From Candidatus Parcubacteria bacterium (lineage in GTDB: Bacteria > Patescibacteriota > Minisyncoccia > Phycocordibacterales > Zambryskibacteraceae), in contig JAIFWJ010000007.1 in assembly GCA_019661865.1 (NCBI GenBank), positions 1 to 36,249 on the forward strand: a DNA stretch of 36,249 bases, in the 5' to 3' direction. This document shows positions 7,434 through 25,763 of the stretch, piece after piece. The translations under genes and the position numbers were made by a program. Numbering within the stretch: position 1 is the stretch's first letter; each line of letters begins with the position of its first letter. The notes under the pieces are model-generated. The model was not told the DNA's origin, did no database searches, and saw only the letters and a list, made by a program, of their open reading frames with translations.

Positions 7434-7445
7434 CGCTAAATTATA
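7434..7445 (-). promoter_or_regulatory. pilM -10 box TATAAT placed 6 nt before ATG (putative leaderless promoter)
   Basis: Minus strand: TATAAT-ttagcg-ATG; TATAAT = 7445..7440. Confidence 0.6.
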
Positions 7446-7469
7446 ACCTGATTTCGGCTTAAATTGTCT

Positions 7470-7481
7470 TAAAATAGATAT
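7470..7481 (+). promoter_or_regulatory. comF -10 box TAAAAT placed 6 nt before ATG (putative leaderless promoter)
   Basis: TAAAAT (7470-7475)-agatat-ATG (7482). Confidence 0.5.
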
Positions 7482-8126
7482 ATGCTGGTAAAATTACGAG
7501 ACATCTTCCTTGATTTCCTCTTTCCTAAAGGTGAAGCTCTTTTAAATCTTGAATCTTTAAGCTCTGGAGACATCCTTAAAACACTTCCTTCTCCAGAAGA
7601 AGATACTGATGAGGTCATAACTCTATTCAGTTATAAAGACGAGAGAGTTAAATCCTTGATTTGGGAGTTGAAATATAAAGGCCAGAGAGAAATTGCTCAC
7701 ACTCTGGCTGAGATTATCTTCGATGTGCTTAAGCACGAACTCCTTGAGCGATCATTTACAGAAAATTTCAAGGATCCACTCCTCATACCAGTACCCACAT
7801 CTGAGTCAAGGCGCAGAGAAAGAGGTTTTAATCAGATTGAGATACTTTGTGAGGAAGTTAAGAAGCTCGATACTGAAAATATACTTACATATGAAAAAAA
7901 CATTTTATTTAAAACTCATCACACTGAAAGCCAGACTCAAACGCACACAAGGAATGAACGCATGAAAAATATTCAGAACTCCATGGAAGCTCACACTACT
8001 CTAAAGAATACTTGCGCAGTGGTCTTAGACGATGTGTTTACCACTGGAGCTACGATGCATGAGGCCAAGAGAGCTCTTAAAGAAGCTGGGATAAAGAAAA
8101 TACTTTGTATCGCAATTGCTCACTAA
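7482..8126 (+). CDS. comF: ComF family phosphoribosyltransferase-like protein
   Basis: 214 aa; LIPVPTSESRRRERGFNQIEIL, and PRPP-binding loop CAVVLDDVFTTGATMHEAKRAL. Confidence 0.9.
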   Translation: MLVKLRDIFLDFLFPKGEALLNLESLSSGDILKTLPSPEEDTDEVITLFSYKDERVKSLIWELKYKGQREIAHTLAEIIFDVLKHELLERSFTENFKDPLLIPVPTSESRRRERGFNQIEILCEEVKKLDTENILTYEKNILFKTHHTESQTQTHTRNERMKNIQNSMEAHTTLKNTCAVVLDDVFTTGATMHEAKRALKEAGIKKILCIAIAH

Positions 8127-8163
8127 CAAATCTAAAGATTCTTATAAATATTTAAGTAAGTAT

Positions 8164-8577
8164 TTAAGCTTTTTTCAAAATTCTAACTTTCATCACGCCG
8201 AATATGTCGAAGATCTTAGACTCTTCTGAAGTGGTAGAGGCAGGCTCTAGGACTCCGATCATTCTAATCTTGTCCTCTGGATTAATATCTGCATCTCCTC
8301 CTTGGAGAGCGGTGGTGTTGAGCGCGTAGACATTGCCATCATCACCTTTTATACCCAGGACACAGTCAGTTTTATTACCGCTAGTCTTATATGGTAGACA
8401 TGCGAAGCTTCCAACCACTTGAGTCTCTCCTGCCTGGACTACATCTGAATCATTGAGACCATTGTCTCTATTTCTAAAGAGTGATACTCCAGCGATAACC
8501 ACAACCACCGCCAGAGCAAGCATTAGCCATTTGTTCTTATAGAACTTCTCATCCATATTTCCAAAGACGAGATGCAT
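8164..8577 (-). CDS. Hypothetical single-TM protein
   Basis: 137 aa (alternative start at 8556, MDEKFYKNKW); N-terminal TM WLMLALAVVVVIAGVSLF, then soluble domain. Confidence 0.65.
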   Translation of the reverse strand: MHLVFGNMDEKFYKNKWLMLALAVVVVIAGVSLFRNRDNGLNDSDVVQAGETQVVGSFACLPYKTSGNKTDCVLGIKGDDGNVYALNTTALQGGDADINPEDKIRMIGVLEPASTTSEESKIFDIFGVMKVRILKKA

Positions 8578-8598
8578 TGCAGTTCTTTACATCAGTAC

Positions 8599-8684
8599 GG
8601 AGAGTGTGGGATTCGAACCCACGAGGGCTTTTAGACCCTACCTCGTTAGCAGTGAGGCGCTTTCGACCACTCAGCCAACTCTCC
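8599..8684 (-). tRNA. tRNA-Ser(GCU)
   Basis: Minus strand GGAGAGTTGGCTGAGTGGTCGAAAGCGCCTCACTGCTAACGAGGTAGGGTCTAAAAGCCCTCGTGGGTTCGAATCCCACACTCTCC; type II tRNA with variable arm, anticodon loop CTGCTAA. Confidence 0.96.
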
Positions 8685-8751
8685 AAATATACTTCGTATT
8701 TGTCGTCCTCCGGAACATTGGCCTCGTGTTCGCCACCCTCGCTCTGCTCGC

Positions 8752-8781
8752 GGATAAATAAGGAGCAGTCCTTATTTATCC
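8752..8781. repeat. Perfect 13-bp inverted repeat (hairpin, 4-nt loop)
   Basis: GGATAAATAAGGA gcag TCCTTATTTATCC. Confidence 0.9.
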
Positions 8782-8799
8782 CACTCAGCCAACTCTCCA
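8781..8799 (-). repeat. Duplicated fragment of the tRNA-Ser 5' end (direct repeat of 8667..8685)
   Basis: CCACTCAGCCAACTCTCCA occurs at 8667-8685 (inside tRNA-Ser) and again at 8781-8799. Confidence 0.9.
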
Positions 8800-8842
8800 G
8801 ATTGGGCCAATTTATCATATTTCGCATTGTTTTCATATTCAT

Positions 8843-8869
8843 ATAAAAACCAGTGACTCGCGTCACTGG
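8843..8869 (-). terminator. Rho-independent terminator after 8871..9308
   Basis: Minus: CCAGTGAC GCGA GTCACTGG TTTTTAT, immediately after the stop codon. Confidence 0.85.
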
Positions 8870-8870
8870 C

Positions 8871-9308
8871 TCAGTAATCAAATAAACTTATTTCTTCAAC
8901 TGGACAAGGAACTTCTGTCTCCAGAAGAACACTCTCACATCTAGAGCATCGCTCTTGCTCACTCCTTCTCCATTCACTCAGGAATTGATACGGAGGTCTG
9001 TTCACCCGGACACGTCCGAAGGTAAGTCTCGCACATACTAGACAGTGCCAGCATGGGCAATAGGAATAGAAACCTCCCGCCCTTAGTCTGTTTCTGAATG
9101 CACGGAACGCGAGATAAACCCCTAAGCACATCACCATCCACTGAGCTGATGGATAGACCAAAGGAGTGATGACGACAGTGATGGCAAGTACTGCTCCTCC
9201 ACATGCCATGGCTGTACTTGAGACTGAAAGCCGAGACTCTCCAGGTTCTTGTAGTGCTGCCCAGATGCTCAAAACGGCTCCAAGTATCATTATCAGATTT
9301 AGGATCAT
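8871..9308 (-). CDS. Hypothetical membrane protein with Cys-rich (zinc-ribbon-like) C-terminus
   Basis: 145 aa; SD GGAGGA upstream of ATG, two or more TM segments, then CPCWHCLVC ... CSRCESVLLETEVPCP; terminator follows. Confidence 0.7.
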   Translation of the reverse strand: MILNLIMILGAVLSIWAALQEPGESRLSVSSTAMACGGAVLAITVVITPLVYPSAQWMVMCLGVYLAFRAFRNRLRAGGFYSYCPCWHCLVCARLTFGRVRVNRPPYQFLSEWRRSEQERCSRCESVLLETEVPCPVEEISLFDY

Positions 9309-9374
9309 ATTTCCTCCAGTTAAGTTTGAATGAGCTCTTCAAACATTCAACGCTTCTCTGTAGATAAAGTCAAT

Positions 9375-9400
9375 TAAAAAGCCGGCGACGAATCACCGGC
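9375..9400 (-). terminator. Rho-independent terminator after 9401..9694
   Basis: Minus: GCCGG...CCGGC stem followed by TTTTT, adjacent to the stop codon. Confidence 0.85.
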
Positions 9401-9694
9401 CTACTCCAACTTCAGAGTCTTGCGTCTCTTATTCGCACCTCGCTTGTCGAACCATTGTAGGATTCTTGGGGCAAGGTAGTAAGACGCCGCTGCGAGAGCC
9501 ACTCCTACCATGATTACCTTCCACCCACTCAAGGGTGGGACGAAGTAGAAGAGAAAGTACCCAGTGAAGAGGAGAGAGGTCCCACTTCCCTGTAAGGCTC
9601 TACTAGACCTGCACTCACCTCGATCGTCTTGAACCAGAGCAGCGAAAGATACCACTACTCCAACCCCCATGACTAGAACTCTAATCCAGTTCAT
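9401..9694 (-). CDS. Small hypothetical membrane protein
   Basis: 97 aa; strong SD (CGGAGG) before ATG, hydrophobic segments, terminator follows. Confidence 0.7.
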   Translation of the reverse strand: MNWIRVLVMGVGVVVSFAALVQDDRGECRSSRALQGSGTSLLFTGYFLFYFVPPLSGWKVIMVGVALAAASYYLAPRILQWFDKRGANKRRKTLKLE

Positions 9695-9802
9695 GCCGCC
9701 TCCGAGTACCTAGTAGATAACAATTCTTTATTTAAAATATAACGATTGAGGCCGAATGTCAAATCGGCCTTCAGACTTCTTGGTGTTAGAATGTTTTAAG
9801 CG

Positions 9803-10450
9803 GTGAAAATATTTTTAAATACACTTGTTAGGAATTTTATAGACAGTTTTAGAGGCAAGAAACTTCTTTGGCACCTCTTGGCTATCATACTTACAGTCAT
9901 CGTCGTTAAAACGGGTTTCGACTGGTGGTACTTCTCCGAGTTTAAGACTATCTCATGGAGCCCACTCGTCTTCCCAGCCCTCTCACTCGGTGGACTGATA
10001 CCTATACTCCTGCCTATTGGACTTATCTCCTACGGATCATTACACAGACACCCACGTCTACGACTTGTAGGCTGGGCCTTGGGACAAGCAGCATTACTTG
10101 GCTCTGCTGTCTCTTCTTTATACAAGGCATTTACTGGTCGTCTGCAGCCTGACCATATCAATTCTCTAGTGGATTCAAGTCATTTGTGGAACTTCGGAAT
10201 CTTAAAGCATGGCATCTTCTGGGGCTGGCCATCTTCACACACTACTATCGCCTTCTCCATGGCACTTTGTCTCATCGCACTCTTCCCGAAGAATAAACTC
10301 CTGATCTTCATCTCATTTATATATGCACTTTACATTGGTCTCTCAGTATCAGTAAGCATTCACTGGTTCTCAGAATTTATGGCCGGAACCATTATCGGGT
10401 CAGTCATAGGTACGACCGTCGGTAAGAGTTGGAAACACTTAATGAGTTAG
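9803..10450 (+). CDS. PAP2-family (phosphatidic acid phosphatase type 2) membrane protein
   Basis: 215 aa, GTG start; KAFTGRLQP, GWPSSHTTIAFSMA, SVSIHWFSEFMAGTIIG = PAP2 motifs. Confidence 0.82.
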   Translation: MKIFLNTLVRNFIDSFRGKKLLWHLLAIILTVIVVKTGFDWWYFSEFKTISWSPLVFPALSLGGLIPILLPIGLISYGSLHRHPRLRLVGWALGQAALLGSAVSSLYKAFTGRLQPDHINSLVDSSHLWNFGILKHGIFWGWPSSHTTIAFSMALCLIALFPKNKLLIFISFIYALYIGLSVSVSIHWFSEFMAGTIIGSVIGTTVGKSWKHLMS

Positions 10451-10518
10451 TTTGCAAAATGTTTAAAACAGGTCCATGCTGATTTGAGATCCTGCTCTTC
10501 ACATTACTAGGAGGTCTT

Positions 10519-11151
10519 ATGGCAACGGTACTGCGTTACCAGACGGCTCGACAAGAACACTTGACGGGGCTTACAAGTGAAGAGCTCTGTGACCTACTGG
10601 CCGACGGGCATGAACCAGCTCTCGGAGTACTCATGAATCGACACCTCGATCGGCTTCGTAAATTCATCGTTTGTCGGGTCAATGGTGATGGTATGGCTGC
10701 GGATGACATTGTCCAAATCACCTTCATCAAAATTTACGAACGAGCAGGAACCAGAAAGAGAAACAATAGCTTCCGCGCATGGATGATGACTATCGCAGTA
10801 CATCTAGCGATAGATCACATCAAAGGTATTCGATACAAGGGCAGGAGGTCCTTAGAGTGGGTACAAACTTTAGGGTACCAGAACCCCTACTCCGCTCATC
10901 CATTCCAAGACCCCCATACTGACCTTGAGAAAGAAATGGAATCGAAGGATGAACTTGATCATGTGTATAAGGACCTAGGAGACTTACCGCCTGAGATGAG
11001 ACGAGCATTAAGGCTCCGTTTCCAAGGTGGTATGAAATACAAAGAGATCTCGGATGTCACCGGTAAGACTGTCGGAGCTCTCAAGATGGACATTCATCGA
11101 GGACGTGACTATCTCAAAGTCCGTCGTCAGAATCGAGACCACCAAACCTAG
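10519..11151 (+). CDS. Sigma-70 family (ECF-like) RNA polymerase sigma factor
   Basis: 210 aa; region 2 ADDIVQITFIKIYERAGTRKRNNSFRAWMMTIAVHLAIDHIKG, region 4 LPPEMRRALRLRFQGGMKYKEISDVTGKTVGALKMDIHRGRDYL; SD AGGAGG. Confidence 0.9.
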   Translation: MATVLRYQTARQEHLTGLTSEELCDLLADGHEPALGVLMNRHLDRLRKFIVCRVNGDGMAADDIVQITFIKIYERAGTRKRNNSFRAWMMTIAVHLAIDHIKGIRYKGRRSLEWVQTLGYQNPYSAHPFQDPHTDLEKEMESKDELDHVYKDLGDLPPEMRRALRLRFQGGMKYKEISDVTGKTVGALKMDIHRGRDYLKVRRQNRDHQT

Positions 11152-11166
11152 GTTGGTGGTTTTTTA
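11138..11166 (+). terminator. Rho-independent terminator of sigma factor gene
   Basis: ACCACCAA acctagg TTGGTGGT TTTTTT. Confidence 0.9.
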
Positions 11167-11174
11167 ATCCAGTT

Positions 11175-12149
11175 TTAATCACTGAAGTCTTGTGTAAACA
11201 TCTTGCCGTATATACCACCATCTACGACTCCTATACCCACTCTTCTAAATGCAGGATCTAAAATATTTTTCTTATGTCCGGGTGAATTCATAAGTCCTTC
11301 ATGTGCACGTTCCACAGTACGGGCTAGTGCCAAGTTCTCTCCCGCCGCGCCGAAGGTGATGCCGGCTTTCCGCATACGGTCGAACGGTGAATTACCATCT
11401 GGGTCGGTATGGGCGAAGTAAGATCTCTGCCACATATCACTCGAGTGCGCGCGGGCCACCGCTACAATACTTTTATCCATAACAAGTGGTCTTGCACCAA
11501 CTTTCGCTCGCTCTTCATTTATAAGTTCGAGCATTCTCGTCTCAGACTCTTCATCAACCGAAAGCCTGGTTGCGGTGAAGGGTAGTTTAAGAGATGTTCC
11601 CTCCTCTGGCTCGACGGTGAGGAAACCCAGAGTCTCTTGAGTAGCCTGGCCGAAGATTCTGTCTAGGTAGACTTCGAGATCCGAAGCCTGATTTACTAAA
11701 GCATTGCCCAAGTGTGAATTCTCTATAGGCTTCTTCACTGACTGGAAGAAAGGTAGAACAACAAGTATAAAAAGAATAAGTGAGGTAAGTATAAGCCCGT
11801 CTATAAGTGCCGGGAGTATAGCTAGAATTCTGGAGGTCTTGGAATAGTGGACATGAGGCGGAATGAAGGAGAAGACCCAAGTGAGAAGAATCTTCAGTAT
11901 GCCTCTCACAATCATGAAGATTATAAGAAAACTTATTGCATCCATGATCCCCGTCGGCCAAGTGAAGTAGTTTGAAATAAAGTGCGAGATTCTGTTGTAT
12001 AAAAGGAAGGCCGTACATGCGGCGAAGACAAGTGAGGTGAGCTTCTCAGTAAGCCAGAAGAAACCTTCACTTACATGCAGATAGATGTATAAGGCAATCA
12101 TCACCACCACACAGACATCTACCACAATGGGGTGTAAGAAAATATCCAT
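11175..12149 (-). CDS. CvpA-like membrane domain fused to CAP/SCP (YkwD-like) domain
   Basis: 324 aa; N-terminal multi-TM CvpA-like region, C-terminal MLELINEERAKVGARPLVMDKSIVAVARAHSSDMWQRSYFAHTDPDGNSPFDRM...AGENLA...GLMNSPGHKKNILDP. Confidence 0.85.
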   Translation of the reverse strand: MDIFLHPIVVDVCVVVMIALYIYLHVSEGFFWLTEKLTSLVFAACTAFLLYNRISHFISNYFTWPTGIMDAISFLIIFMIVRGILKILLTWVFSFIPPHVHYSKTSRILAILPALIDGLILTSLILFILVVLPFFQSVKKPIENSHLGNALVNQASDLEVYLDRIFGQATQETLGFLTVEPEEGTSLKLPFTATRLSVDEESETRMLELINEERAKVGARPLVMDKSIVAVARAHSSDMWQRSYFAHTDPDGNSPFDRMRKAGITFGAAGENLALARTVERAHEGLMNSPGHKKNILDPAFRRVGIGVVDGGIYGKMFTQDFSD

Positions 12150-12211
12150 ACCTTAACTCTACAATAGACGAGCCCGAGTTACGATTCATTCAATAATACG
12201 TCTAAGTTACT

Positions 12212-13165
12212 ATGGCAATACGAGATTTATTTAAAAGATTTAAAAAGCCCGAGGCCCCTATATACTTTCGAGTTGGGCATTTACTTCAGTGGGTGAAGAC
12301 TGTAGGCCTCGTTACGGGATCAGTGATAGTTCTATTATTTATATTGGTCTTTTACCAATTCCGCCTAACTCAGAGCCTTAAGACTCAAGTAGGCACTCTA
12401 GAGAATAAGCTCTCTATGCTCGCCACCTCTCCCTCACTGGTGTCGACCTCTACAAGTGACGACTTAACGCGTGCTGTAGCCAAGGTCTCTCCAGGAGTAG
12501 TGTCTATCGTCATCTCCCAAGATGTACCCAAGATGCAAGTGCAATACATTAATCCATTTGGTAGTAGTCCAGAGTATCGTAATTCTCGCCTGCGCATACC
12601 TGTATATAAGCAAGTTGGTACAGAGAAGCAGGATACCGGCGCTGGTAGTGGCTTCATCGTGCGATCTGATGGATACATTATTACCAACAGTCACGTAGTT
12701 GAGGATGATACTGCCACATATACAGTGCTTCTCTCAAGTGGTGAAGAGAAGGTGGCACATGTAGTGAGCCTCGACCAAGCCGACGACATTGCAGTTATAA
12801 AGATAGATGCTTCAAACCTTCCTACAGTACCTTTGGGTGAGTCATCGAACTTAGTCCTGGGGCAGACTGTAGCAGCTATAGGTAATGCTCTGGGTGAGTA
12901 CAGTAACTCAGTCTCTGTAGGTATAGTCTCAGGGCTCGACCGTACCATAGAAGCCGGAGATTATGATGGCAATGTAGAAACTCTTTCCGGAGTGATACAA
13001 ACCGATGCAGCTATAAACCCTGGTAACTCCGGCGGACCACTCCTTGACCTTAATGGCGAGGTAACGGGAGTAAATGTGGCCACAGTCCGGGGGTCGAACA
13101 ACATTTCCTTCGCTGTACCTATAGATGTGGTGAAAAATATTTTGAAAAATTTAAATATTAAATAA
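12212..13165 (+). CDS. Membrane-anchored HtrA/DegP-like trypsin-type serine protease without PDZ domain
   Basis: 317 aa; N-terminal TM, GSGFIVRSDGYIITNSHVV, DDIAVIKID, QTDAAINPGNSGGPLLDLNGEVTGVN; ends just after the protease domain. Confidence 0.93.
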   Translation: MAIRDLFKRFKKPEAPIYFRVGHLLQWVKTVGLVTGSVIVLLFILVFYQFRLTQSLKTQVGTLENKLSMLATSPSLVSTSTSDDLTRAVAKVSPGVVSIVISQDVPKMQVQYINPFGSSPEYRNSRLRIPVYKQVGTEKQDTGAGSGFIVRSDGYIITNSHVVEDDTATYTVLLSSGEEKVAHVVSLDQADDIAVIKIDASNLPTVPLGESSNLVLGQTVAAIGNALGEYSNSVSVGIVSGLDRTIEAGDYDGNVETLSGVIQTDAAINPGNSGGPLLDLNGEVTGVNVATVRGSNNISFAVPIDVVKNILKNLNIK

Positions 13166-13176
13166 AAAACTAAAAC

Positions 13177-13482
13177 ATGAAAGACTTCTTACACTTCCTT
13201 CGTACTCAAGGTGTCATAGCATTAGCCATAGCCTTCATCATTGGTGCGGCTGCACAAGACTTCGTGAAGTCACTATCTAGTGATCTCATCACCCCTACCA
13301 TAGGTCTCATTGCTGGACGCTTCGGAGATTTGCAGAATGCATCTTCTACTATCTCTGGAGTTACATATGGTTGGGGTCACATAATATACGCATTAGTAAA
13401 CTTAATCCTTGTGGCACTCGTCATATATCTCATAGTAAAGACCACACATATAGATAAGATAGACGAGAAGAAAGAAGGCTAG
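13177..13482 (+). CDS. mscL: Large-conductance mechanosensitive channel MscL
   Basis: 101 aa; FLRTQGVIALAIAFIIGAAAQDFVKSLSSDLITP, second TM and basic tail. Confidence 0.88.
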   Translation: MKDFLHFLRTQGVIALAIAFIIGAAAQDFVKSLSSDLITPTIGLIAGRFGDLQNASSTISGVTYGWGHIIYALVNLILVALVIYLIVKTTHIDKIDEKKEG

Positions 13483-13501
13483 AAGAAGTATGTAGGAAGT
13501 G

Positions 13502-13513
13502 TAAAATGGCGGG
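13502..13513 (+). promoter_or_regulatory. recG -10 box TAAAAT placed 6 nt before ATG
   Basis: TAAAAT (13502-13507)-ggcggg-ATG (13514). Confidence 0.5.
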
Positions 13514-15691
13514 ATGAATCTTATTGATCCGCTCACACAACACTTCCGCATAGTGCCAGTCCAAGCTGCTGCACTGAAGCGTCTGGGTTTACATAGTATT
13601 GAAGATCTCCTGTATCACTTTCCTGTGCGTTATGGAGATACGGCGGAAATTATAAATATAGAAAGTCTTAAGAAGGGCGATACTGGAGTAGTCTTCGGCC
13701 GTATAAGCGGACTTAAAACTTCCAAGGCCTTCAAGAAGAAGATCTCCATGTCCGAGGCCTGGGTCGAAGATGATACAGGCAGAGTGAAGATTGTTTGGTT
13801 CCATCAAGCATACATGGCCAAGATCTACCGTGAGGGTGCGCTCGTAAGAGTGGAGGGGAAAATTTCTGAGAAGAAAAGTCTGTCTGCCGGTAGGCCAGGA
13901 GAAATTTACTTTTCTAACCCGCACATAGAGACAGTCGGGAAGCTTCCCATAGCAGTGGGTAACTCACTCTTCGGTGATGCTGGCGAGGCCCACTCACTCT
14001 ACCCAGTCTATCCAGAGACTAGAGGCCTCACGTCCAACTGGATCACACACAAAGTTCAGACGATATTTTCCTCTGGAGTCCTAGATGGCATTCATGACCC
14101 AATCCCAGAAAATATTTTAAAAACTTATAATCTCCCCTCACTTAAGACCGCTCTTATATGGATCCACACTCCACAGAAGAAAGAACATGCGGAGATGGCC
14201 AGAAAGAGGTTCGCATTCGAAGAAATTTTCTTCATCCAACTAGAGAAGCAGAAGTCGAGATTTGAATTCAAAGAGCGCAATGCATTTGTAATTGAAAAAT
14301 CCATAGATGATATAGAGAACTTTATCGATAGATTTCCTTTCCAAGCCACATCTGCTCAGAGACGAACTATAGAAGAAGCTCTCTTTGACTTCCGCCGTGG
14401 ACATCCCATGGCAAGACTCCTTGAAGGTGATGTGGGGTCAGGTAAGACTGCTGTCGCAGCTGCCATAGCATATGCAATCACTACATCGAAACCTAAAAAT
14501 CAAACTTTCGGAACTTTGCAGACAGCATATATGGTACCTACAGAAATACTGGCTCAACAACATTTCGAATCATTCATAAAATATTTCCGACATCTGCCTA
14601 TAAACATTGGTCTCATTACAGGAAGTGGTGCGAGGAAGTTCCCATCCAAAGTTAATCCTTCTGGTTGGACCGATATCTCACGTGCACAACTCCTGCGTTG
14701 GGTGGCTTCTGGCGAGATCTCCATACTCATCGGCACCCATGCGCTTATACAGAAGTCGGTGAAGTTTAAACATTTAGCACTCGCTATCATAGACGAGCAA
14801 CATCGCTTCGGCACCGCACAAAGGCAGAAATTCGCCACCAAGGAATCTGTCACTCCACATCTCATGTCTATGACGGCCACACCCATACCTCGTACACTCT
14901 CTCTCACTCTATACGGAGACCTCGACCTCTCACTACTTGATGAAATGCCGGCGGGCAGGAAACAAATCATTACAGAGATAGTGCTCCCGAACAAGCGAGA
15001 TGAAACTTATGAGAAATTGCGCGGAGAATTAAAGAACGGCAGACAAATGTATGTCATATGTCCGCGTATAAATGAACCCGATCCAGATAAAGAGAATGTA
15101 TTACTTGCAAAGTCGGTGAAGGAAGAGGCCAAGAGACTCAAGGAAAAAATTTTCCCAGAATATAGAATCGGCATCCTCCACTCCAAGATGACCCCTGCGG
15201 AGAAGGAGCGTGTGATGATTGAGTTTAAGGATAAGAAGATTGATATATTAGTAGCTACATCTGTGGTAGAAGTGGGGGTAAATGTAGAGAATGCATCGCT
15301 TATCGTCATTGAGGGTGCAGAGCGCTTCGGACTCTCACAACTTCACCAACTTCGTGGGCGTGTCCTACGAGGTACTCACCAGCCATACTGCTTCGTCTTC
15401 CCTGAGACTACAAGTGCGAAGACTGTGGAGAGGCTAAAGGCTTTAAAGACCGCCAAGAATGGCTTCGAACTTGCGGAGTTCGACCTACAGCAGCGTGGTG
15501 CCGGAGAGTTGTATGGTAGGAAGCAGTGGGGCATCTCAGACCTCGCCATGGAAGCCATAAAGAACCTACGCATGGTTGAGGCCGCACGCACAGAAGCCAC
15601 TAAGATTATTGAAGGTGACCCAACTCTCTCCAAGCATCCTGACATTAAACACCACCTAGAAACCACTTCCCAAAGGATCCATTTTGAATAA
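13514..15691 (+). CDS. recG: ATP-dependent DNA helicase RecG
   Basis: 725 aa; wedge OB domain, LLEGDVGSGKTAVA, IIDEQHRFG, MTATPIPRTL, QLRGRVLRG. Confidence 0.96.
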   Translation: MNLIDPLTQHFRIVPVQAAALKRLGLHSIEDLLYHFPVRYGDTAEIINIESLKKGDTGVVFGRISGLKTSKAFKKKISMSEAWVEDDTGRVKIVWFHQAYMAKIYREGALVRVEGKISEKKSLSAGRPGEIYFSNPHIETVGKLPIAVGNSLFGDAGEAHSLYPVYPETRGLTSNWITHKVQTIFSSGVLDGIHDPIPENILKTYNLPSLKTALIWIHTPQKKEHAEMARKRFAFEEIFFIQLEKQKSRFEFKERNAFVIEKSIDDIENFIDRFPFQATSAQRRTIEEALFDFRRGHPMARLLEGDVGSGKTAVAAAIAYAITTSKPKNQTFGTLQTAYMVPTEILAQQHFESFIKYFRHLPINIGLITGSGARKFPSKVNPSGWTDISRAQLLRWVASGEISILIGTHALIQKSVKFKHLALAIIDEQHRFGTAQRQKFATKESVTPHLMSMTATPIPRTLSLTLYGDLDLSLLDEMPAGRKQIITEIVLPNKRDETYEKLRGELKNGRQMYVICPRINEPDPDKENVLLAKSVKEEAKRLKEKIFPEYRIGILHSKMTPAEKERVMIEFKDKKIDILVATSVVEVGVNVENASLIVIEGAERFGLSQLHQLRGRVLRGTHQPYCFVFPETTSAKTVERLKALKTAKNGFELAEFDLQQRGAGELYGRKQWGISDLAMEAIKNLRMVEAARTEATKIIEGDPTLSKHPDIKHHLETTSQRIHFE

Positions 15692-15721
15692 CTCCCGATT
15701 TTGTTATAGTGTAGGCCTAAA

Positions 15722-16154: not shown

Positions 16155-16171
16155 ATAAGTTATTTTATAAG

Positions 16172-16489
16172 TTATACAGAAGCTGTAGGACTTGAGGTAG
16201 TGGGCATTGGCTGTCTCTTTACTGCGAAGTAATAGATGATAGCGCCCAAGACTCCAGCAAATATCATGACAAGGATCCAGAGAGGCTTGTGCTCGATAGG
16301 ATGCTTGATGGCATGCACGAGCATCATAATCCAGAAGACAGTGGTAAGTAATGAGATAAGTATAAAGACTGCAAATACTCCTGCTCCCCAACCGAAGACT
16401 GTCTTCAGCACTCCGGTCAACTGCTCACACGGCACAACCTGGCCATTTAACTTACACGTTGCTTCATTAACTGCTGCAATTAAGTCCAT
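16172..16489 (-). CDS. PLDc_N-like small membrane protein
   Basis: 105 aa; VFWIMMLVHAIKHPIEHKPLWILVMIFAGVLGAIIYYFAVKR. Confidence 0.75.
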   Translation of the reverse strand: MDLIAAVNEATCKLNGQVVPCEQLTGVLKTVFGWGAGVFAVFILISLLTTVFWIMMLVHAIKHPIEHKPLWILVMIFAGVLGAIIYYFAVKRQPMPTTSSPTASV

Positions 16490-16535
16490 ATTTTAAAATT
16501 ATTTGTATTATTTATATGGACTAATTATCTAACAC

Positions 16536-18482: not shown

Positions 18483-18534
18483 ATGCGAATAAGACGTATT
18501 AGATGCCCATTATATCCAAATGTTAGTATTTTGC

Positions 18535-18546
18535 TATTATCTTCTT
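18535..18546 (+). promoter_or_regulatory. smpB extended -10 (TGC-TATTAT) placed 6 nt before ATG
   Basis: TATTAT (18535-18540)-cttctt-ATG (18547). Confidence 0.55.
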
Positions 18547-18990
18547 ATGACTACATTTGCCGATAACAAGAAGGCCAGGTTCGACTATGAAATCCTCGAG
18601 ACTCTCTCGGCAGGGCTTGAGCTTCTTGGTAGTGAAGTGAAGTCCGTAAAGCTCGGGAAAATTTCTCTTAATGGATCTTTCATCGGTGTGCGAGGCAAAG
18701 AGGCATATCTCTTAGGAGCTGAAATCTCTCCCTACCAGCCTGGAAACAGCTCTTCGGAGATTGACCGAGAGAGACCCAAGAAACTTCTCTTATCTAAGGA
18801 AGAGATTATACGCTTAAGTGAGGCCGAAAATACCAAAGGCTTGACAATAGTGCCTCTTAAGGTGTATAATAAAGGTAGATTTCTGAAGCTCGATCTCGGC
18901 ATAGCTCGTGGTAGACGCAAGTTCGACAAACGAGAGAGTATAAAGAAGCGAGATACTGAGCGAGACATAAAAAGATCTTTGAAAGGATAA
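18547..18990 (+). CDS. smpB: SsrA-binding protein SmpB
   Basis: MTTFADNKKARFDYEILETLSAGLELLGSEVKSVKLGKISLNGSFI...RGRRKFDKRESIKKRDTERDI; ORF track extends to 18520 but ATG at 18547 fits homologs. Confidence 0.95.
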   Translation: MTTFADNKKARFDYEILETLSAGLELLGSEVKSVKLGKISLNGSFIGVRGKEAYLLGAEISPYQPGNSSSEIDRERPKKLLLSKEEIIRLSEAENTKGLTIVPLKVYNKGRFLKLDLGIARGRRKFDKRESIKKRDTERDIKRSLKG

Positions 18991-19030
18991 ACCGCTTCCC
19001 TTTTTGTTCGTGATTCGTCGTTAATAAAGA

Positions 19031-19432
19031 GGGGATGTCAGTTTTGACATAAGGATTCTCACCATTCGTGCAAAGCGGAGCTCCAAGAACTCCTTAAAAG
19101 CTTGGAAACATAAGTGCAAACACATTTGTTGCACGAGCTAAATCAGTTCTCTCTCCATATTTTGGAATGAACGATTTAACTTTCGCTTACGCTAGAGCTT
19201 AACCGCTCACGTTTCGAACATTTTTCTTCTTGTTGTTTAGTCCGGGTAGAAAAATGCTAATTGGCTAAACTGTAACTCCGATGCTGCTCACCTCGGTGCC
19301 AAACATTCGAGCTCTGGAGAATATTCGTTTCGTCTAACTTTTAGACTACTCTCCGAAAACACAAGTTAGTCTATGCTTTGTAGATTCGTTTAGTGATTCT
19401 TTATGGACGTGGGTTCAATCTCACCATCTCCA
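19031..19432 (+). ncRNA. ssrA: tmRNA (SsrA)
   Basis: 5' GGGGATG pairs with 3' CATCTCC; T-arm GGGTTCAATC; resume codon context taagtGCAAAC; tag reading frame 19116-19202 ending TAA; directly downstream of smpB; terminator follows. Confidence 0.92.
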
Positions 19433-19448
19433 CAACAAACTGATTAAC

Positions 19449-19479
19449 AAAACCACTCTACGCAGAGTGGTTTTGTTTT
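19449..19479 (+). terminator. Rho-independent terminator of ssrA
   Basis: AAACCACTCT ACGC AGAGTGGTTT TGTTTT. Confidence 0.9.
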
Positions 19480-19481
19480 AT

Positions 19482-20030
19482 TTATCTTAATTCACTCAAG
19501 ACACTTGCACGACGGAAGAAGAAGGCTGAGGTCAAAAACATTAGAGCGAAAATTCCGTTCAAAATAAACACTCCTACTACACCTGGAGGCTTTTCTGTAA
19601 TTTGTGGAGCGGCAATCACAAGTATGATGACGGGTACAAGCATCTGAGCCACTGCCATACTAAATGCCGCCCGAGACATGCCGGTAGGCTTAAAGTGTCC
19701 AATAAATGCTCCAATGAATCCAGTAACTATCACTCCTAGGTACATAAGATTCGCAGTCATGTATCCATCTCCGATGATACCTACCGCAGCATTTATCCAA
19801 ACTAGAAGAAGACTTGCCACAGCTGCTACTCCCACTGCCCGACGGTAATCGGTAGTAGAACCTTGTCTGGCGATGTAAAGATATGCGAGACCCGTACCGA
19901 AAATAAGAGAGCCCATAAAGACGAAGTCGAAGATGCTCCAGTTCCAATTGCTCGAAAACTTCATCATTACTAGAGGGATGAGGAGTATGGCCAGAGTCAG
20001 GAGGGCAAGGCGGATAATACTTTTCTTCAT
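19482..20030 (-). CDS. Hypothetical polytopic membrane protein
   Basis: 182 aa, several hydrophobic helices; SD agagga; TATAAT upstream. Confidence 0.7.
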   Translation of the reverse strand: MKKSIIRLALLTLAILLIPLVMMKFSSNWNWSIFDFVFMGSLIFGTGLAYLYIARQGSTTDYRRAVGVAAVASLLLVWINAAVGIIGDGYMTANLMYLGVIVTGFIGAFIGHFKPTGMSRAAFSMAVAQMLVPVIILVIAAPQITEKPPGVVGVFILNGIFALMFLTSAFFFRRASVLSELR

Positions 20031-20153
20031 AAGTCCTCTAATAATTCCAAATTATAACCACTCTGTCCACTAAGAGAATAAGATTATTCTAGTCATATTT
20101 GCATTCTTTTGGCAAAGGTATAAGGTTTTTCTAGACACTAAACAGGAGTACAT

Positions 20154-20600
20154 ATGGGCAATCGCGGTACGACCCCGAATTGGGACGACGAGCAGATCTC
20201 CAAGTACGGAATATTCGGGCATTTCCGAATGGTATCTGCGCCCGCTAGGGCTGAACGAGCCCGCAGGGATGCCAAGCTTGTAGAAGAAAACATCGGTCAG
20301 GTGCTCTCTCTTCTCAACGACACATCTCTCGACACACTAGTGAGGGCGACATACGCTATTCCATGTCTAGCAAAAAGCCTCTTGTTACCAGAAGATCTCA
20401 GATTGAAGAACTGGCGCGAGCTTGTAGCTAGGGAGATCTACGAAGACTGGTTCCAAAATACTAAGCAATGGGGACCTGCGCCTCCCTTCGAAATCCTTTC
20501 CACGGAAGATCAAGAGCCTTTCTACAAAGTAGTGGAAGCCACAGTAGAAGCACTTCGGATGGAAGTCACGATGGCTGAGCTCCGGGGCGCCTGTGAATGA
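20154..20600 (+). CDS. Hypothetical soluble protein
   Basis: 148 aa; SD caggag upstream of ATG, terminator downstream; no recognised family. Confidence 0.65.
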   Translation: MGNRGTTPNWDDEQISKYGIFGHFRMVSAPARAERARRDAKLVEENIGQVLSLLNDTSLDTLVRATYAIPCLAKSLLLPEDLRLKNWRELVAREIYEDWFQNTKQWGPAPPFEILSTEDQEPFYKVVEATVEALRMEVTMAELRGACE

Positions 20601-20614
20601 AAACTTAGTCCTTC

Positions 20615-20634
20615 ACCGCCTCGGCGGTTTTTAT
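20615..20634 (+). terminator. Rho-independent terminator
   Basis: ACCGCC TC GGCGGT TTTTATTT. Confidence 0.85.
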
Positions 20635-20690
20635 TTGCAAAAAGATTCTTCTGACGTAAGATTCTCCCAGACTAATACCGGAGAGATCCA

Positions 20691-21248
20691 ATGGATAACT
20701 CTGCCTACATCGCGAAAGCACGCATCTTCGCTAAGAAGGCTCACGGGTCACAGACTCGTGCAAGTGGCAAAACTTATACCAGTGACCACTGTCTACGGGT
20801 TGCAATACAGGTCAGGAGGTATGGAGGTGACACGGAATGTATAGTAGCCGCCTTTCTGCATGACGTAGTAGAGGATACTCCAGTAACCATAGAAGAGATT
20901 CGAAGGAAGTTCGGGGATGATGTGGGAAATCTTGTCCTGGCTCTTACTGACTCAAACGAGATCACAAATCTGCCCATCGCTCAAAGGAAACAGAAGCAGG
21001 CAGAGCATATACGACTCTGTGATAGTCGAGTTAAATTAGTGAAAGTTTGTGATCAGCTCGACAATGTGGAGTCCATCATTAATGATAACCCTGGCTGGGA
21101 TGCGGAGAGGTGTCTGGATTATGCTAACGGTGCCATGAGCATAGTCAACGAGTGTCAGGATGTAATACCTCTGAGCCTGTGGAACCGCTTCCGGAGTGTC
21201 CATTCGCAAGTTCTTCAGTTATATTCAGGGACACATACCGAGCCATGA
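20691..21248 (+). CDS. HD-domain phosphohydrolase (RelA/SpoT-HD / MESH1-like)
   Basis: 185 aa; AKKAHGSQTRASGKTYTSDHCLRVA, AAFLHDVVEDTPVTIEEIRRKFGDDVGNLVLALTDSNE. Confidence 0.82.
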   Translation: MDNSAYIAKARIFAKKAHGSQTRASGKTYTSDHCLRVAIQVRRYGGDTECIVAAFLHDVVEDTPVTIEEIRRKFGDDVGNLVLALTDSNEITNLPIAQRKQKQAEHIRLCDSRVKLVKVCDQLDNVESIINDNPGWDAERCLDYANGAMSIVNECQDVIPLSLWNRFRSVHSQVLQLYSGTHTEP

Positions 21249-21261
21249 TCTCGGTTTTTTA
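21237..21261 (+). terminator. Rho-independent terminator overlapping the HD gene stop codon
   Basis: ACCGAG ccatgat CTCGGT TTTTTATTTTT; the TGA lies in the loop. Confidence 0.85.
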
Positions 21262-21294
21262 TTTTTATTAAAATTTTGGTCTATAATATAGATA

Positions 21295-22344
21295 ATGAAA
21301 AAATTTTGGTTCGCACTTATTTCTCTACTAGCAATTATTTCTCCATTGTTCGTAAGTGCTCATGAAGCGTATGTACTCACCACCAAGGAGTGGGACTACG
21401 GCATCATGCATCCAGGTGCTGGGCGCTTGCTAGGAGCTCTAACGCCCGAGAACTTTAAGGTCATTGTAGTTATTACTCTCTCCATTGTTGCGGCTCTTAT
21501 CTTCACCTTCTTCTTCAGACTCACTTCGATAGCTGGGTTTCTAGGTAGGCAGGTAGAAAGGCTTTCCGTAATAGGGCCGATCATCGTGCGTCTCACCTTC
21601 GCCACAGCACTCTTTTTCTCTGCTCACACTGATCATATACTTGGACCGGAGTTGCCGCTAAGTGTTTTACCCTATGATCACCTTCTCAGGGCTACTCTTT
21701 ATATCGCGAGCATATGTATTGCACTTGGATTTCTTACAGAGATCATGGCACTCGCATCACTCGCCATATTTATACTCGCAGCCAGAGAATACGGAGCATA
21801 CATTATTACTTATCTCAATTACTTAGGAGAAATTATTGTTCTTCTACTCTTCGGCTCAAGAGAATGGTCTATAGATAGAAAAATCTTCGGTCCACTTAAA
21901 CGCTTAAGGAACTGGAGCAATTATAAGACTGTCATTGTGCGCATATGTTACGGTTTAGCACTTATTTATGCTGCCGTAAATATAAAATTGTTTCATCCTC
22001 TTCTCACCATCCAAGTAGTAAACGACTATCATTTAAACCAGTTCCACTGGCTCTTCCCCCATGACCCGTTACTTATCGCTCTGGGCGCGGCCATTACAGA
22101 GATAGTTATAGGATTATTTATAATTTTTGGATTCGAGATGAGGCTGACAGTTCTGGTAAGTGTTTTCTACATAACACTTTCACTCCTCTTCTTCCGTGAA
22201 GCGGTTTGGCCACACTTACTTCTCTATGGCATTTCATTTAACCTACTGGTTGAACCAGAAGTATTTACACTGGATCATTTAGTAGAAAATAGATTTAAAG
22301 GTGGTTTCCTTAAGGGACTATTCAGACACGGCTCTCCTACTTAA
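21295..22344 (+). CDS. DoxX-like polytopic membrane protein
   Basis: 349 aa; signal peptide-like N-terminus and two DoxX-like repeats (VRLTFATALFFSAHTDHI..., VRICYGLALIYAAVNIKLFHP...). Confidence 0.6.
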   Translation: MKKFWFALISLLAIISPLFVSAHEAYVLTTKEWDYGIMHPGAGRLLGALTPENFKVIVVITLSIVAALIFTFFFRLTSIAGFLGRQVERLSVIGPIIVRLTFATALFFSAHTDHILGPELPLSVLPYDHLLRATLYIASICIALGFLTEIMALASLAIFILAAREYGAYIITYLNYLGEIIVLLLFGSREWSIDRKIFGPLKRLRNWSNYKTVIVRICYGLALIYAAVNIKLFHPLLTIQVVNDYHLNQFHWLFPHDPLLIALGAAITEIVIGLFIIFGFEMRLTVLVSVFYITLSLLFFREAVWPHLLLYGISFNLLVEPEVFTLDHLVENRFKGGFLKGLFRHGSPT

Positions 22345-22355
22345 CTTTATTTAAC

Positions 22356-22817
22356 TTAACTTTTTTCAGTCTTCTTTAAAATCTCAAGCAGAAGTTCGTT
22401 CTGATTCTCCAAGTGGGCGATGACGGTCTCGATCTCCTTCTCTGCCTTTTCATTGATATGAAAGTCTGCTTCTGCACGCATATCGGCGAATCTGCTTTCC
22501 AAGTTCTGCCCAACCATAATGAGTGGCAGAAGTATGAGCTGAATCATATTAGATATAAAAAGCCAGACCACGAAGGCTGGCGCTGGATCGAAACGAAACT
22601 CGTGCGGCGCAAGAAGGTTCCAAAGTAACCACCCTAATGTCCATATAAACAAAACTAGGAAGAATCCCATCGAGCCCACATGGTGAGTGATAAAGACGGC
22701 GAACTCCTCTAAGGGGCTGAGTGCTACATGCGTATCCTTTATCACTCCTCGTACTGGGCGGCGACTTGCCTTTAACTCCTCAAGTGAAGGCAACTTATGT
22801 TTATACTCTACGGTCAT
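22356..22817 (-). CDS. DUF1003 family membrane protein
   Basis: 153 aa; FAVFITHHVGSMGFFLVLFIWTLGWLLWN...NMIQLILLPLIMVGQN...AEADFHINEKAEKEI. Confidence 0.88.
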   Translation of the reverse strand: MTVEYKHKLPSLEELKASRRPVRGVIKDTHVALSPLEEFAVFITHHVGSMGFFLVLFIWTLGWLLWNLLAPHEFRFDPAPAFVVWLFISNMIQLILLPLIMVGQNLESRFADMRAEADFHINEKAEKEIETVIAHLENQNELLLEILKKTEKS

Positions 22818-22879
22818 ATCTTGTTATGTATGAAAATTATACACCGTGTGCTATAATACATCTAATAAAGAAAAACGAA

Positions 22880-23389
22880 TTGCAGACCCCTCGTACTAAC
22901 CACGCCATCCGAGTACGCGAACTACGCGTCATCGGGCCAAAAGGAGAAAATTTCGGAGTCCTAACCTTAGAAGAAGCCCTTAAGAAAGCCGAGGAATTTA
23001 GCCTGGATCTTATAGAGATATCTCCTAATGCTAACCCTCCCGTGGCCAAGATCACAGACCTCGGTAAGTACATGTATGAGGAGAACAAGAAGCAGAAAGC
23101 CTCCAAGGGTAAGGCCCATTCAGTAGAGGTAAAGACTGTTCAAGTAAAGCTCGGTACAGGAGATCATGACCTCGGTCTCAAGGCTAAGAAGGCCAGCACC
23201 TGGCTTGGTGAGGGCAATAGAGTAAAGATTGACTTATTCTTACCCGGCCGAGCCAAGTACCTAGATGAAAAGTTCCTCCGGGAACGTATAGACCGGATCT
23301 TGAAGCTCCTTACTGTCCCTTATACCATTGCCGACCCAGCTAAGAAGAGTCCCAAGGGCATGACAGTCATAATTGAGCGTGCTCGCTAG
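22880..23389 (+). CDS. infC: Translation initiation factor IF-3 (non-ATG start; TTG at 22880 or ATA at 22865)
   Basis: NHAIRVRELRVIGPKGENFGVLTLEEALKKAEEFSLDLIEISPNANPPVAKITDLGKYMYE...; no plausible in-frame ATG at the N-terminus. Confidence 0.92.
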   Translation: MQTPRTNHAIRVRELRVIGPKGENFGVLTLEEALKKAEEFSLDLIEISPNANPPVAKITDLGKYMYEENKKQKASKGKAHSVEVKTVQVKLGTGDHDLGLKAKKASTWLGEGNRVKIDLFLPGRAKYLDEKFLRERIDRILKLLTVPYTIADPAKKSPKGMTVIIERAR

Positions 23390-23427
23390 ACAAATTCGCC
23401 GAAACCTGTAGTATATAGGCCCTATCT

Positions 23428-23622
23428 ATGTCAATGAAGACCAATAAGTCCTACGCGAAACGCCTCAAAGTTACCAAGACTGGCAAGCTTATAGCACGTA
23501 AGACTGGCCAGAACCACTTCAACTCTAAGGAGTCGAGTAAGGAGAGGTTCCAGAAGGGTCGTAACTCCGAGTTCCATATGTCCAACAAGGAGCGCTCTCG
23601 CTTCCTAGTAAATATTAAATAA
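23428..23622 (+). CDS. rpmI: 50S ribosomal protein L35
   Basis: 64 aa; KTNKSYAKRLKVTKTGKLIARKTGQNHFNSKESS; follows infC. Confidence 0.92.
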   Translation: MSMKTNKSYAKRLKVTKTGKLIARKTGQNHFNSKESSKERFQKGRNSEFHMSNKERSRFLVNIK

Positions 23623-23627
23623 TTGTC

Positions 23628-23972
23628 ATGACCAGAGTTAAGAAAGGAGTTAATGCGCTGAAGTGGAGGAGAAACCTGCTTTCCCGCACTAAGGGTTACC
23701 GCCATGGTAGGAAGTCCAAGGAGCGTGCAGCTACCGAGGCACTTTTTCATGCTGGTGCATACGCTTTCGCTCACAGACGAGACAAGAAGGGTGACTTCCG
23801 TCGCCTCTGGAATGTCCGCCTTTCTGCGGCCCTTAAGGCTGAAGGGTTAAGCTACTCTAAATTCATTCCTGCATTGAAGAAGAAGGGTATCGCACTCGAC
23901 CGTAAGATCCTCTCCGAGATTGCTGGTAACCACCCAGAAGTCTTCAGGAAGCTCCTAGCAGAAGTTAAGTAG
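23628..23972 (+). CDS. rplT: 50S ribosomal protein L20
   Basis: 114 aa; TRVKKGVNALKWRRNLLSRTKGYRHGRKSKERAATEALFHAGAYAFAHRRDKKGDFRRLW. Confidence 0.95.
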   Translation: MTRVKKGVNALKWRRNLLSRTKGYRHGRKSKERAATEALFHAGAYAFAHRRDKKGDFRRLWNVRLSAALKAEGLSYSKFIPALKKKGIALDRKILSEIAGNHPEVFRKLLAEVK

Positions 23973-23983
23973 AACTATAAGAT

Positions 23984-25342
23984 CTATAAATCGAGTTCGT
24001 ATTCCTTGAGTCTTTCTGGGACAATAGCATTTACCTTTTGTTCTTCATGGAGGCGTTCGGCAAGAAATTCTGAAGTCTTGGTCTCTCCCATTGTTATAAA
24101 GACTTGGTCTAAGGTGTTTTTAGATTCACTTACGAAGTCCACCAAGTGATCCGAGTCCATATGCCCAGAGAATCCTTCTATGGATACTACTCGTGCACGG
24201 ACATCTACTTCTTGTCCATGGATTGAAACTTTTTTCTTCCCTTCATATATCTCTCTACCCAGTGTGGCCGGTGCTTGGTAACCGACGAGGAGAACAGTGG
24301 CATTCGGATCAGGAAGATAGCGAGCTTCATGATTTAAAATACGTCCTGCAGTAGACATCCCAGATCCGGCTAGAATAATTTTCGGATTCTCTGCTTCAAA
24401 TATTTCATGTGCATCACGAGCTCGTACTAGTTCATGAAGTTTCGGGAAATTAAAAATATCATCGTGCTTAAGCTCATCCTTAGCAGATGAGTTAAAGAAT
24501 CTCGCCCCTACATGTTCATAAACTTTAGTTATATTTATAGCAAGTGGTGAGTCTAGGAAGACAGGAACTGGTTTTAAATCTGCTTCGAATAATTTATTAA
24601 GTTCATAAAGTATGATCTGGGTCCTTTCAAGAGAAAATATGGGGATCATAAGCACGCCCTTACTCTCTATAGTTTCTCTAACTACTTCTTTAAACTTTCT
24701 GTCTCTCTCATCTACCGGCTCATGGTTTCTATCTCCATATACAGACTCCATCAGTATGTAGCTTGCACCCGCAGGCTTCTCTGGATCTGGCAAGATAAGT
24801 GAAGGAGCGTTACCCAAGTCTCCGGTAAAAAAGATTGATTTCCCAGAGGGAAATGTAAATTTATACATAGCAGATCCCAAGATATGCCCAGAGTTAAAGA
24901 GCTCCAGAGTGAAGTCTTGGAAGTCCGTTTTAGCATGATACTCAAGTGTTTGCCATAGGCTCATTGCTCTTTCAACTTCTTTCTCCGTATAAAGTGGCTC
25001 TTCTCCCTTGGCCTCTGCTCCGACTTGAGTTAAGTGAGCACTATCAAGAAGCATGAGATGCGAGAGCTCTTTAGTGGGTTCTGTGGAAAATATCTTTCCA
25101 CTAAAGCCCCTCTTTATAAGCAGTGGAATCTTACCTATGTGATCTGCATGGGCGTGAGTAACGAAGAGGGTGTGAATCTCCCTCGGCTCGTAGTCGAAGG
25201 TTGCATTTATTTTTTCTGAACCTTCGACTCCTTGGAGAATTCCGCAATCAATTAAATATTTTTTGCCTCTGACTTCTAACTGAAAATTGGCACCAGTCAC
25301 GGCACCTACTCCACCGAACGCTGTAAGAACCGGTTTACTCAC
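23984..25342 (-). CDS. MBL-fold / beta-CASP RNA metallo-hydrolase
   Basis: 452 aa; THAHADHIGKIP, FFTGDLG, SGMSTAGRILNH, GFSGHMDSDHL motifs. Confidence 0.93.
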   Translation of the reverse strand: MSKPVLTAFGGVGAVTGANFQLEVRGKKYLIDCGILQGVEGSEKINATFDYEPREIHTLFVTHAHADHIGKIPLLIKRGFSGKIFSTEPTKELSHLMLLDSAHLTQVGAEAKGEEPLYTEKEVERAMSLWQTLEYHAKTDFQDFTLELFNSGHILGSAMYKFTFPSGKSIFFTGDLGNAPSLILPDPEKPAGASYILMESVYGDRNHEPVDERDRKFKEVVRETIESKGVLMIPIFSLERTQIILYELNKLFEADLKPVPVFLDSPLAINITKVYEHVGARFFNSSAKDELKHDDIFNFPKLHELVRARDAHEIFEAENPKIILAGSGMSTAGRILNHEARYLPDPNATVLLVGYQAPATLGREIYEGKKKVSIHGQEVDVRARVVSIEGFSGHMDSDHLVDFVSESKNTLDQVFITMGETKTSEFLAERLHEEQKVNAIVPERLKEYELDL

Positions 25343-25343
25343 A

Positions 25344-25751
25344 TCAATTTATGTAAAAATTCTGTTTTCTCCCCACCAGTCCTGCAATGGACGCTCCTAC
25401 CATATCTGCTAAGAGGTCGAGGAAAGTATCTTGTCCATAAGTTTCCCCATATGCAGGGTTCGCCATTCCATATACGAGTTCGAAGAACTCCCACGCCACT
25501 CCCGCCACGAGTACAAATACGAAGGCGGTAATGAAAGCTTGTCTCATGCTGGGTCGAAACTTGCCAAAGAGTCCCGAGTCCCACCAGAGCCAGATACCGA
25601 AAAATCCTAGTGAGATTCCAGCTAAGAAATGTATAAACTTATCGAAATATGGCACCGACCAGTACCAGTAAAAGAGACTAGCCATGTAATGCAAGACTCC
25701 TAAGATGATTAGAATTCCGAAGGTTGAGTATAGAAGTGAACGTTTCTTCAT
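25344..25751 (-). CDS. DUF2238/VanZ-like small membrane protein
   Basis: ATG at 25751 (MKKRSLLYSTFGIL...) preferred over the upstream TTG; FDKFIHFLAGISLGFFGIWLWW, ...DTFLDLLADMVGASIAGLV. Confidence 0.78.
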   Translation of the reverse strand: MKKRSLLYSTFGILIILGVLHYMASLFYWYWSVPYFDKFIHFLAGISLGFFGIWLWWDSGLFGKFRPSMRQAFITAFVFVLVAGVAWEFFELVYGMANPAYGETYGQDTFLDLLADMVGASIAGLVGRKQNFYIN

Positions 25752-25763
25752 CCAGACATTATA
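25752..25763 (-). promoter_or_regulatory. -10 box TATAAT placed 6 nt before ATG of 25344..25751
   Basis: Minus: TATAAT-gtctgg-ATG. Confidence 0.6.

Follow-up and report, generated by a model that had tools for sequence, protein, structure and literature searches.

Leaderless genes in many bacteria are marked by a TANNNT hexamer placed ~12 bp before their start codons, within a signal range of 10-12 bp (Zheng et al. 2011, PMC3160421). Such genes have been tested experimentally in Deinococcus, where they carry a -10 motif (PMC12340547), and are also known from Mycobacterium tuberculosis (PMC3898074), and TG-extended forms of the motif have already been noted in Lactococcus (PMC3160421). The stretch of DNA examined here (the window; 36,249 nucleotides, bases 1-36249 of contig C9) comes from a metagenome-assembled genome (MAG) of the Paceibacterota (Parcubacteria), a lineage of the Candidate Phyla Radiation (CPR); the bacterium is of a very small, parasitic type, and its recG relatives group it with Zambryskibacteria and Taylorbacteria. 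It carries TANNNT exactly six nucleotides before the ATG of several genes, and the 16S rRNA of its source genome lacks the anti-Shine-Dalgarno (anti-SD) sequence CCUCC.

Partial counterparts of this combination exist in several groups. The TA-led genes of the Actinobacteria and of Deinococcus-Thermus are alike in their -10-like TANNNT ~12 bp before the start, their dispensable -35 box, the absence of a Shine-Dalgarno (SD) sequence and their share of ~20-40% of genes; they differ in being accompanied by genes with a ribosome-binding site (RBS) or SD (e.g. the RBS-motif genes of Deinococcus), whereas here the ribosome itself is without an anti-SD. The sigma-70 extended -10 promoters are comparable in their TGnTATAAT sequence, their independence from a -35 box and the conservation of sigma regions 3.0 and 4.2, but here they are so placed that transcription is predicted to begin on the start codon itself. 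Leaderless mRNAs and anti-SD loss are found together in mammalian mitochondrial ribosomes and in Nanoarchaeota (PMC10582724, PMC9881170, PMC10783764), which are an organelle and archaea, whereas the present lineage is bacterial and has operons, IF-3 and promoters of the sigma-70 kind.

Closest in phylogeny are Campbellbacteria and Wolfebacteria, tabulated in 2024 as SD-scarce and without CCUCC (PMC10783764). The organisms in that compilation resemble ours in their 16S tails without CCUCC, in their few SDs and in the inclusion of single Parcubacteria genomes; as far as the available parts of that source extend, it treats single CPR genomes and proposes neither a promoter nor a start mechanism for the listed bacteria, whereas the loss described here spans an order, is mosaic over a class and occurs together with leaderless promoters. 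The survey by Zheng et al. (PMC3160421) was based on RefSeq genomes of 2010 and does not list the present lineage. We found no paper linking leaderless promoters with the CPR in a literature search of incomplete coverage, and a domain-wide motif scan (PMC12340547, Fig S7) may include the phylum. Leaderless genes with TANNNT and anti-SD loss in single CPR genomes are thus already known, and their order-wide pairing was not found in the literature searched.

Spacing and sequence of the element before start codons

The source genome measures 0.6 Mb in 9 contigs and is 97% complete; its relatives are likewise available as MAGs only, many of which were sampled as 40-kb stretches. Our genome sample comprised 246 kb (~40% of the source genome) with 179 ATG genes, called by a home-made program that relies on codon-pair statistics only and never uses upstream motifs. 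Gaps are written Nx, where x is the number of nucleotides between the TANNNT hexamer and the start codon, so that N6 puts the first T at -12. For these genes, the chance expectation at N6 was estimated by shuffling their upstream sequences 300 times with dinucleotides preserved.

A scan of the genome against shuffled upstream sequences, as proposed by a reading of the window made from its letters alone (the sequence-only reading), yielded a single pronounced peak. TANNNT stands at N6 in 43 of the 179 genes and in 2-12 at every other gap below 20, while the shuffles gave a mean of 5.1 and a maximum of 11 at N6; over background, the enrichment is 8.6x (P ~2e-27). The result that would have refuted the sequence-only reading, a lack of N6 enrichment, was thus not obtained in the ~40% of the genome and the relatives covered. 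The peak persists outside the window (35/141 ATG genes vs a background of 3.9) and among genes with unambiguous starts (27/119), and N6 enrichment extends to relatives, with values of 9.5x among congeners, 5.7x across the family and 3.7x across the order. The annotated starts of E. coli showed none (0/42). The pattern TGNTANNNT at N6 has 18 cases in the source genome vs 0.27 and, when the source genome and its genus are pooled, 38 among 370 ATG genes vs a background of 0.72 per gap; in the pooled set it preceded one of 44 GTG starts, none of 55 TTG starts and none of 2322 internal methionine codons. Among first genes of the source genome, 43 of 84 carry TANNNT at N6-N9 vs 10.7 expected from control windows.

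Within the window, curated ATG starts have TANNNT at N6 in 9 of 47 cases vs 1.3 expected (P ~5e-6), as against 11 of 1187 other ATGs (0.9%). The five loci named by the sequence-only reading (pilM, comF, recG, smpB and the gene starting at 25751) are present exactly as it wrote them, as are its two N7 cases and its N8 case (Table 1). Its view that the spacing recurs was right in substance and too low in number, since four more starts (those of pilB and of the genes at 12149, 16489 and 26652) have the same spacing. It could be argued that AT-rich upstream DNA yields TANNNT often and that the N6 cases were hand-picked, a view with which the bare pattern TANNNTN6ATG agrees in not being over-represented across the whole window (20 matches vs 20.2 expected). 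The lack of a window-wide excess, taken together with the excess at starts, means rather that the signal belongs to gene starts alone, where N6 surpasses every other gap and all 300 shuffles, also outside the window, while non-start ATGs show the N6 pattern at 0.4-0.9% and the spacing is conserved in orthologues. The enrichment, the shuffles and the conservation at recG described below rule chance out, leaving it next to no probability.

The nature of the element, overlooked in the sequence-only reading, emerges from 78 N6 genes of the source genome and genus. T occurs at -15 in 59% and G at -14 in 63%, although neither position was part of the selection, and the hexamer is TAnAAT-like, so that the whole element reads TGnTAnAAT. 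In these genes, TTGACA-like boxes show no enrichment for any spacer length of 10-24, in keeping with the earlier description of -35 boxes as weak or absent. Judged by its sequence, the element is a sigma-70 extended -10 promoter. The housekeeping sigma factor RpoD (L214:1018-2226) has an intact region 3.0 (RVPVHMVET), which reads the TG, and an intact region 4.2 (VTRERIRQIEAKA). A degenerate region 4.2 was considered as the cause of the missing -35 boxes and rejected on this ground; since both regions are intact, the absence of -35 boxes is a property of the promoters and not of a damaged sigma factor.

The same motif might instead be an A/U-rich translation signal, serving ribosome binding or unfolding from within a leader. 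Such a signal would suit a ribosome that needs some other cis signal in place of the SD, and genes without an N6 element do have A/U-rich upstream regions with few purine runs. The fixed TGnTAnAAT, held with single-base precision, is nevertheless the sigma-70 extended -10 consensus, the part of RpoD that reads TG is retained, and the motif is stronger on first genes and almost absent before GTG and TTG starts; we therefore regard a translation signal as very improbable. A test of whether N6 genes lack an A-rich, G-poor stretch just 5' of the AUG was significant over all genes and not within first genes, and it was not used as evidence.

Conservation of the spacing can be followed best at recG. 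Among 57 orthologues (55-77% identity), an exact N6 TANNNT is present in 29 and an N7 in 10, despite diverged upstream DNA, and the orthologues of comF likewise keep N6 or near-N6 elements. These comparisons bear on the suggestion that the hexamers are real -10 boxes with variable transcription starts, that the ATGs are mis-annotated and that translation really begins further 3', behind ordinary leaders. ATGs close to an N6 element can indeed be wrongly annotated, and start errors of the opposite kind are reported for Deinococcus annotations (PMC12340547). The alignments of the recG orthologues, however, begin with residue 1, encoded by the N6 ATG, and the peak among unambiguous starts is the same, which leaves this suggestion with a very small chance of being right. 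At smpB the element implies a start at 18547 rather than at the ATG of the longest open reading frame (ORF; 18520), and the motif-free gene caller independently picked 18547. Half of the gaps between divergent gene pairs are 90 bp or shorter, so there is little space for two promoters with leaders; the start codons of comF and pilM are separated by just 48 bp.

Table 1. Predicted promoter elements and other features of the window
Feature	Position	Strand	Element or remark
pilM, predicted leaderless promoter	7431-7445	-	-10 TATAAT 7445-7440, 6-nt gap, ATG 7433-7431
comF, predicted leaderless promoter	7470-7484	+	-10 TAAAAT 7470-7475, 6-nt gap, ATG 7482
recG, predicted leaderless promoter	13502-13516	+	TAAAAT-GGCGGG-ATG
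smpB, predicted leaderless promoter	18532-18549	+	extended -10, TGC-TATTAT-CTTCTT-ATG; start codon 18547; N6 core 18535-18549
Promoter of gene 25344-25751	25749-25763	-	TATAAT-GTCTGG-ATG; product without Pfam or NCBIfam match
pilB, start 4711	4709-4726	-	extended -10, TGA-TAGAAT-TACCCC-ATG, N6
Gene starting 12149	12147-12161	-	N6 element TAGAGT
Gene starting 16489	16487-16501	-	N6 element TAATTT; weak hexamer, could be chance
Gene starting 26652	26650-26664	-	N6 element TAATTT; weak hexamer, could be chance
Response regulator, start 2975	2973-2988	-	TATAAT at N7; predicted leader 1 nt
Gene 21295-22344	21282-21297	+	TATAAT at N7; predicted leader 1 nt
pilN, start 6260	6258-6274	-	TATAAT at N8; predicted leader 2 nt
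SD-bearing genes	8871-9308, 9401-9694, 19482-20030	-	strong SD, mostly un-host-like codon scores
SD-bearing genes	10519-11151, 20154-20600, 20691-21248	+	strong SD, mostly un-host-like codon scores
IF-3	22826-23389	+	PF00707 match at 23123-23377, E 4.9e-11; factor retained

Loss of the anti-Shine-Dalgarno sequence

The 3' tail of the source 16S rRNA reads GTGGAGTAATTCAATTTGA, without CCUCC, and the 3' end of the gene (GTCGTAACAAGGCACGGGTAGCGGAAGCTGCTCGTGGAGTAATTCAATTTGAAAATG) retains helix 45 while CACCTCC is absent. A search with the region just 5' of the tail gave matches in 138 of the order's 197 genomes. Among the matches listed, none of 52 tails (~50 genomes) has CCTCC and none has even CTCC; instead, a common GTGGA(A/T)TA.TTCAA, or its extended form GTGGA(A/T)TA.TTCAA.TTGAA, recurs across families. 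That close relatives have the variant tail in common argues against sequencing error, and the conservation of the replacement across families suggests that it may have a function such as rRNA processing. An alternative anti-SD was not apparent, in that 5-mers complementary to the new tail are not consistently enriched before starts.

The canonical anti-SD pattern was met in one of 148 genomes of the order. This genome (G265) has two 16S genes on contigs C2 and C6 (L152), one canonical and one without anti-SD, which might mean that the assembly is contaminated or that the organism has ribosomes of two types; as a 16S gene without anti-SD is present on another contig of the same genome, the canonical one may have come from elsewhere. 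In the wider class, 83 tails comprise 29 that are canonical, 11 that are one base off and 43 without the sequence, and canonical tails occur scattered among those one base off (CATCTCC, TTTCTCC) and those fully lost. This distribution suggests that the anti-SD may have been lost several times independently in the class. In other classes of the phylum, all 16S tails among the matches listed have CCTCC.

The upstream regions of genes agree with the tails. SD 4-mers precede 16 of 179 starts in the source genome vs 14.0 in the control, which is no enrichment, and they are depleted in relatives and enriched in anti-SD-bearing classes (36 vs 17.3), the only ones in which AGGAG ranks with the most enriched 5-mers. 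The share of genes with an SD 4-mer is 4-9%, not above control. SD motifs would be missing because the 16S rRNA has no anti-SD to pair with them, a context absent from the sequence-only reading, whose statement that the N6 genes lack SD sites it fits; a gap of six nucleotides between hexamer and ATG leaves no room for one.

If the leaderless genes were real and the absent anti-SD an artefact of an rRNA intron or a misassembly, SD initiation could be normal for the remaining genes. Insertions are indeed numerous in CPR rRNA genes (PMC11270868), perfect SDs precede a minority of genes, and G265 has its second, canonical 16S gene. A hidden anti-SD beyond an rRNA intron was rejected since no CCTCC was found downstream of the source 16S in up to 3 kb searched. 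The source tail and the listed tails of the order moreover have GGA(A/U)UA.UUCAA in common, and host-like genes show no SD enrichment at their starts. The profile of Era, a protein that binds GAUCACCUCC (PMC10582724), reached its cut-off in none of 41 relatives, in agreement with PMC12641178; the weak matches in all relatives are partial and confined to the GTPase domain. We consider an artefact most unlikely. The bS21 profile had no match in the source genome, one of 41 relatives at cut-off and seven with weak sub-cut-off matches, so that a loss of bS21 cannot be firmly claimed. Separately, one genome of the same order (G059) is among two of 117 without an IF3_C match despite its 100% completeness.

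A proposed mode of initiation and points against it

Transcription generally starts ~7 nt past the -10 hexamer, and at N6 the +1 position is therefore the A of the AUG. We envisage that housekeeping-sigma extended -10 promoters (TGnTAnAAT), fixed 6 bp 5' of the start codon, would direct RNA polymerase to begin with the A of this codon, with leaders of 0-3 nt for N6-N9 (1-3 nt for N7-N9). The mature 16S rRNA would end in ...GGAAUAUUUCAA without CCUCC, so that a ribosome which has lost its anti-SD would be unable to use SD pairing, and selection of a transcript's first gene would rest on pairing of the 5'-terminal AUG with initiator tRNA, on either 30S or 70S ribosomes. Downstream genes of operons, whose junctions cluster at -4, -8 and +1, would be reached through these short or overlapping junctions together with A/U-rich, purine-run-poor upstream sequence. 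We hold this combination of leaderless or near-leaderless mRNAs, 5'-AUG starts and re-initiation within operons to be highly probable. Leaderless initiation at the N6 genes, which we infer from promoter geometry, is very likely, and the proposal that it is a normal mode here is supported. The extended -10, the restriction to ATG, the absence before internal methionine codons and the conservation in orthologues speak for a promoter firing at the start codon.

Several observations weigh against so simple a picture. Roughly half of the first genes lack a recognisable -10 close by and must therefore start in another way, and N6 elements also precede 12 of 76 operon-internal genes, which would require internal promoters. 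N6 enrichment occurs as well in anti-SD-bearing classes (31/212, 3.9x); leaderless use is thus not tied one-to-one to anti-SD loss. The starts depend on a home-made caller, which placed 28 of 42 exactly on a 50-kb test of E. coli. Moreover, ~20 ORFs of the sample, mostly accessory and often with unusual codon scores, have perfect SDs at N3-N6, and SDs (AGGAGG, CGGAGG, AGGAG) precede three sigma genes in relatives (L218, L220, L221; two congeners and another family) that are homologues, at 27-32% identity, of window gene 10519-11151. The recurrence on sigma genes makes a special role for the SD possible. Since sampled congeners lack an SD peak, the SD-bearing genes may otherwise be imports that have kept the SDs of their donors.

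In the window, such genes lie near tRNA-Ser (8597-8685) and tmRNA (19031-19433) and include one sigma factor (Sigma70_r2 and r4_2) and one HD_4 protein. Three further SD-bearing ORFs of the source genome (L101:16547-17629, L106:12386-13795 and L104:10449-10826) have lipoprotein-like signal peptides and include a subtilase (PF00082) and a putative metalloprotease with a HELTH motif; their acquisition from a bacterial host is possible. The tmRNA, directly 3' of smpB, has an unusually long predicted tag of 28 aa (ANTFVARAKSVLSPYFGMNDLTFAYARA). In the same class, four genomes with an anti-SD (L173-L180) show an excess at N7 (11/79) rather than at N6 (1/79), without the TG signature, for which no explanation was found.

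Because N6 enrichment is found in anti-SD-bearing classes too, it is plausible that leaderless starts came first and that the anti-SD then became expendable. A more far-reaching proposition, which we offer tentatively as possible rather than probable, is that the whole order has abandoned the SD, that the 5'-AUG provided by extended -10 promoters is the main start of first genes, and that, once Era and canonical bS21, both contacts of the anti-SD, had been lost or had diverged, the conserved A/U-rich tail that took the place of the anti-SD (GGA-WUAWUUCAA) acquired some new function in rRNA maturation or initiation.

Significance for the lineage

Bacterial gene finders and expression designs assume the SD, and an entire order of the CPR appears to do without it; a -10 box at N6 would be the best predictor of starts in such an order, and those who build genetic tools for these organisms might draw on the same rule as a guide to the design of 5' regions. 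The loss of the anti-SD may help to explain the loss of Era. With leaderless mRNAs and no anti-SD, the order would constitute a bacterial counterpart to the mitochondrial case, and since the class around it includes genomes with intact, one-base-off and absent anti-SD sequences, the stepwise giving-up of SD pairing might be traced among its members.

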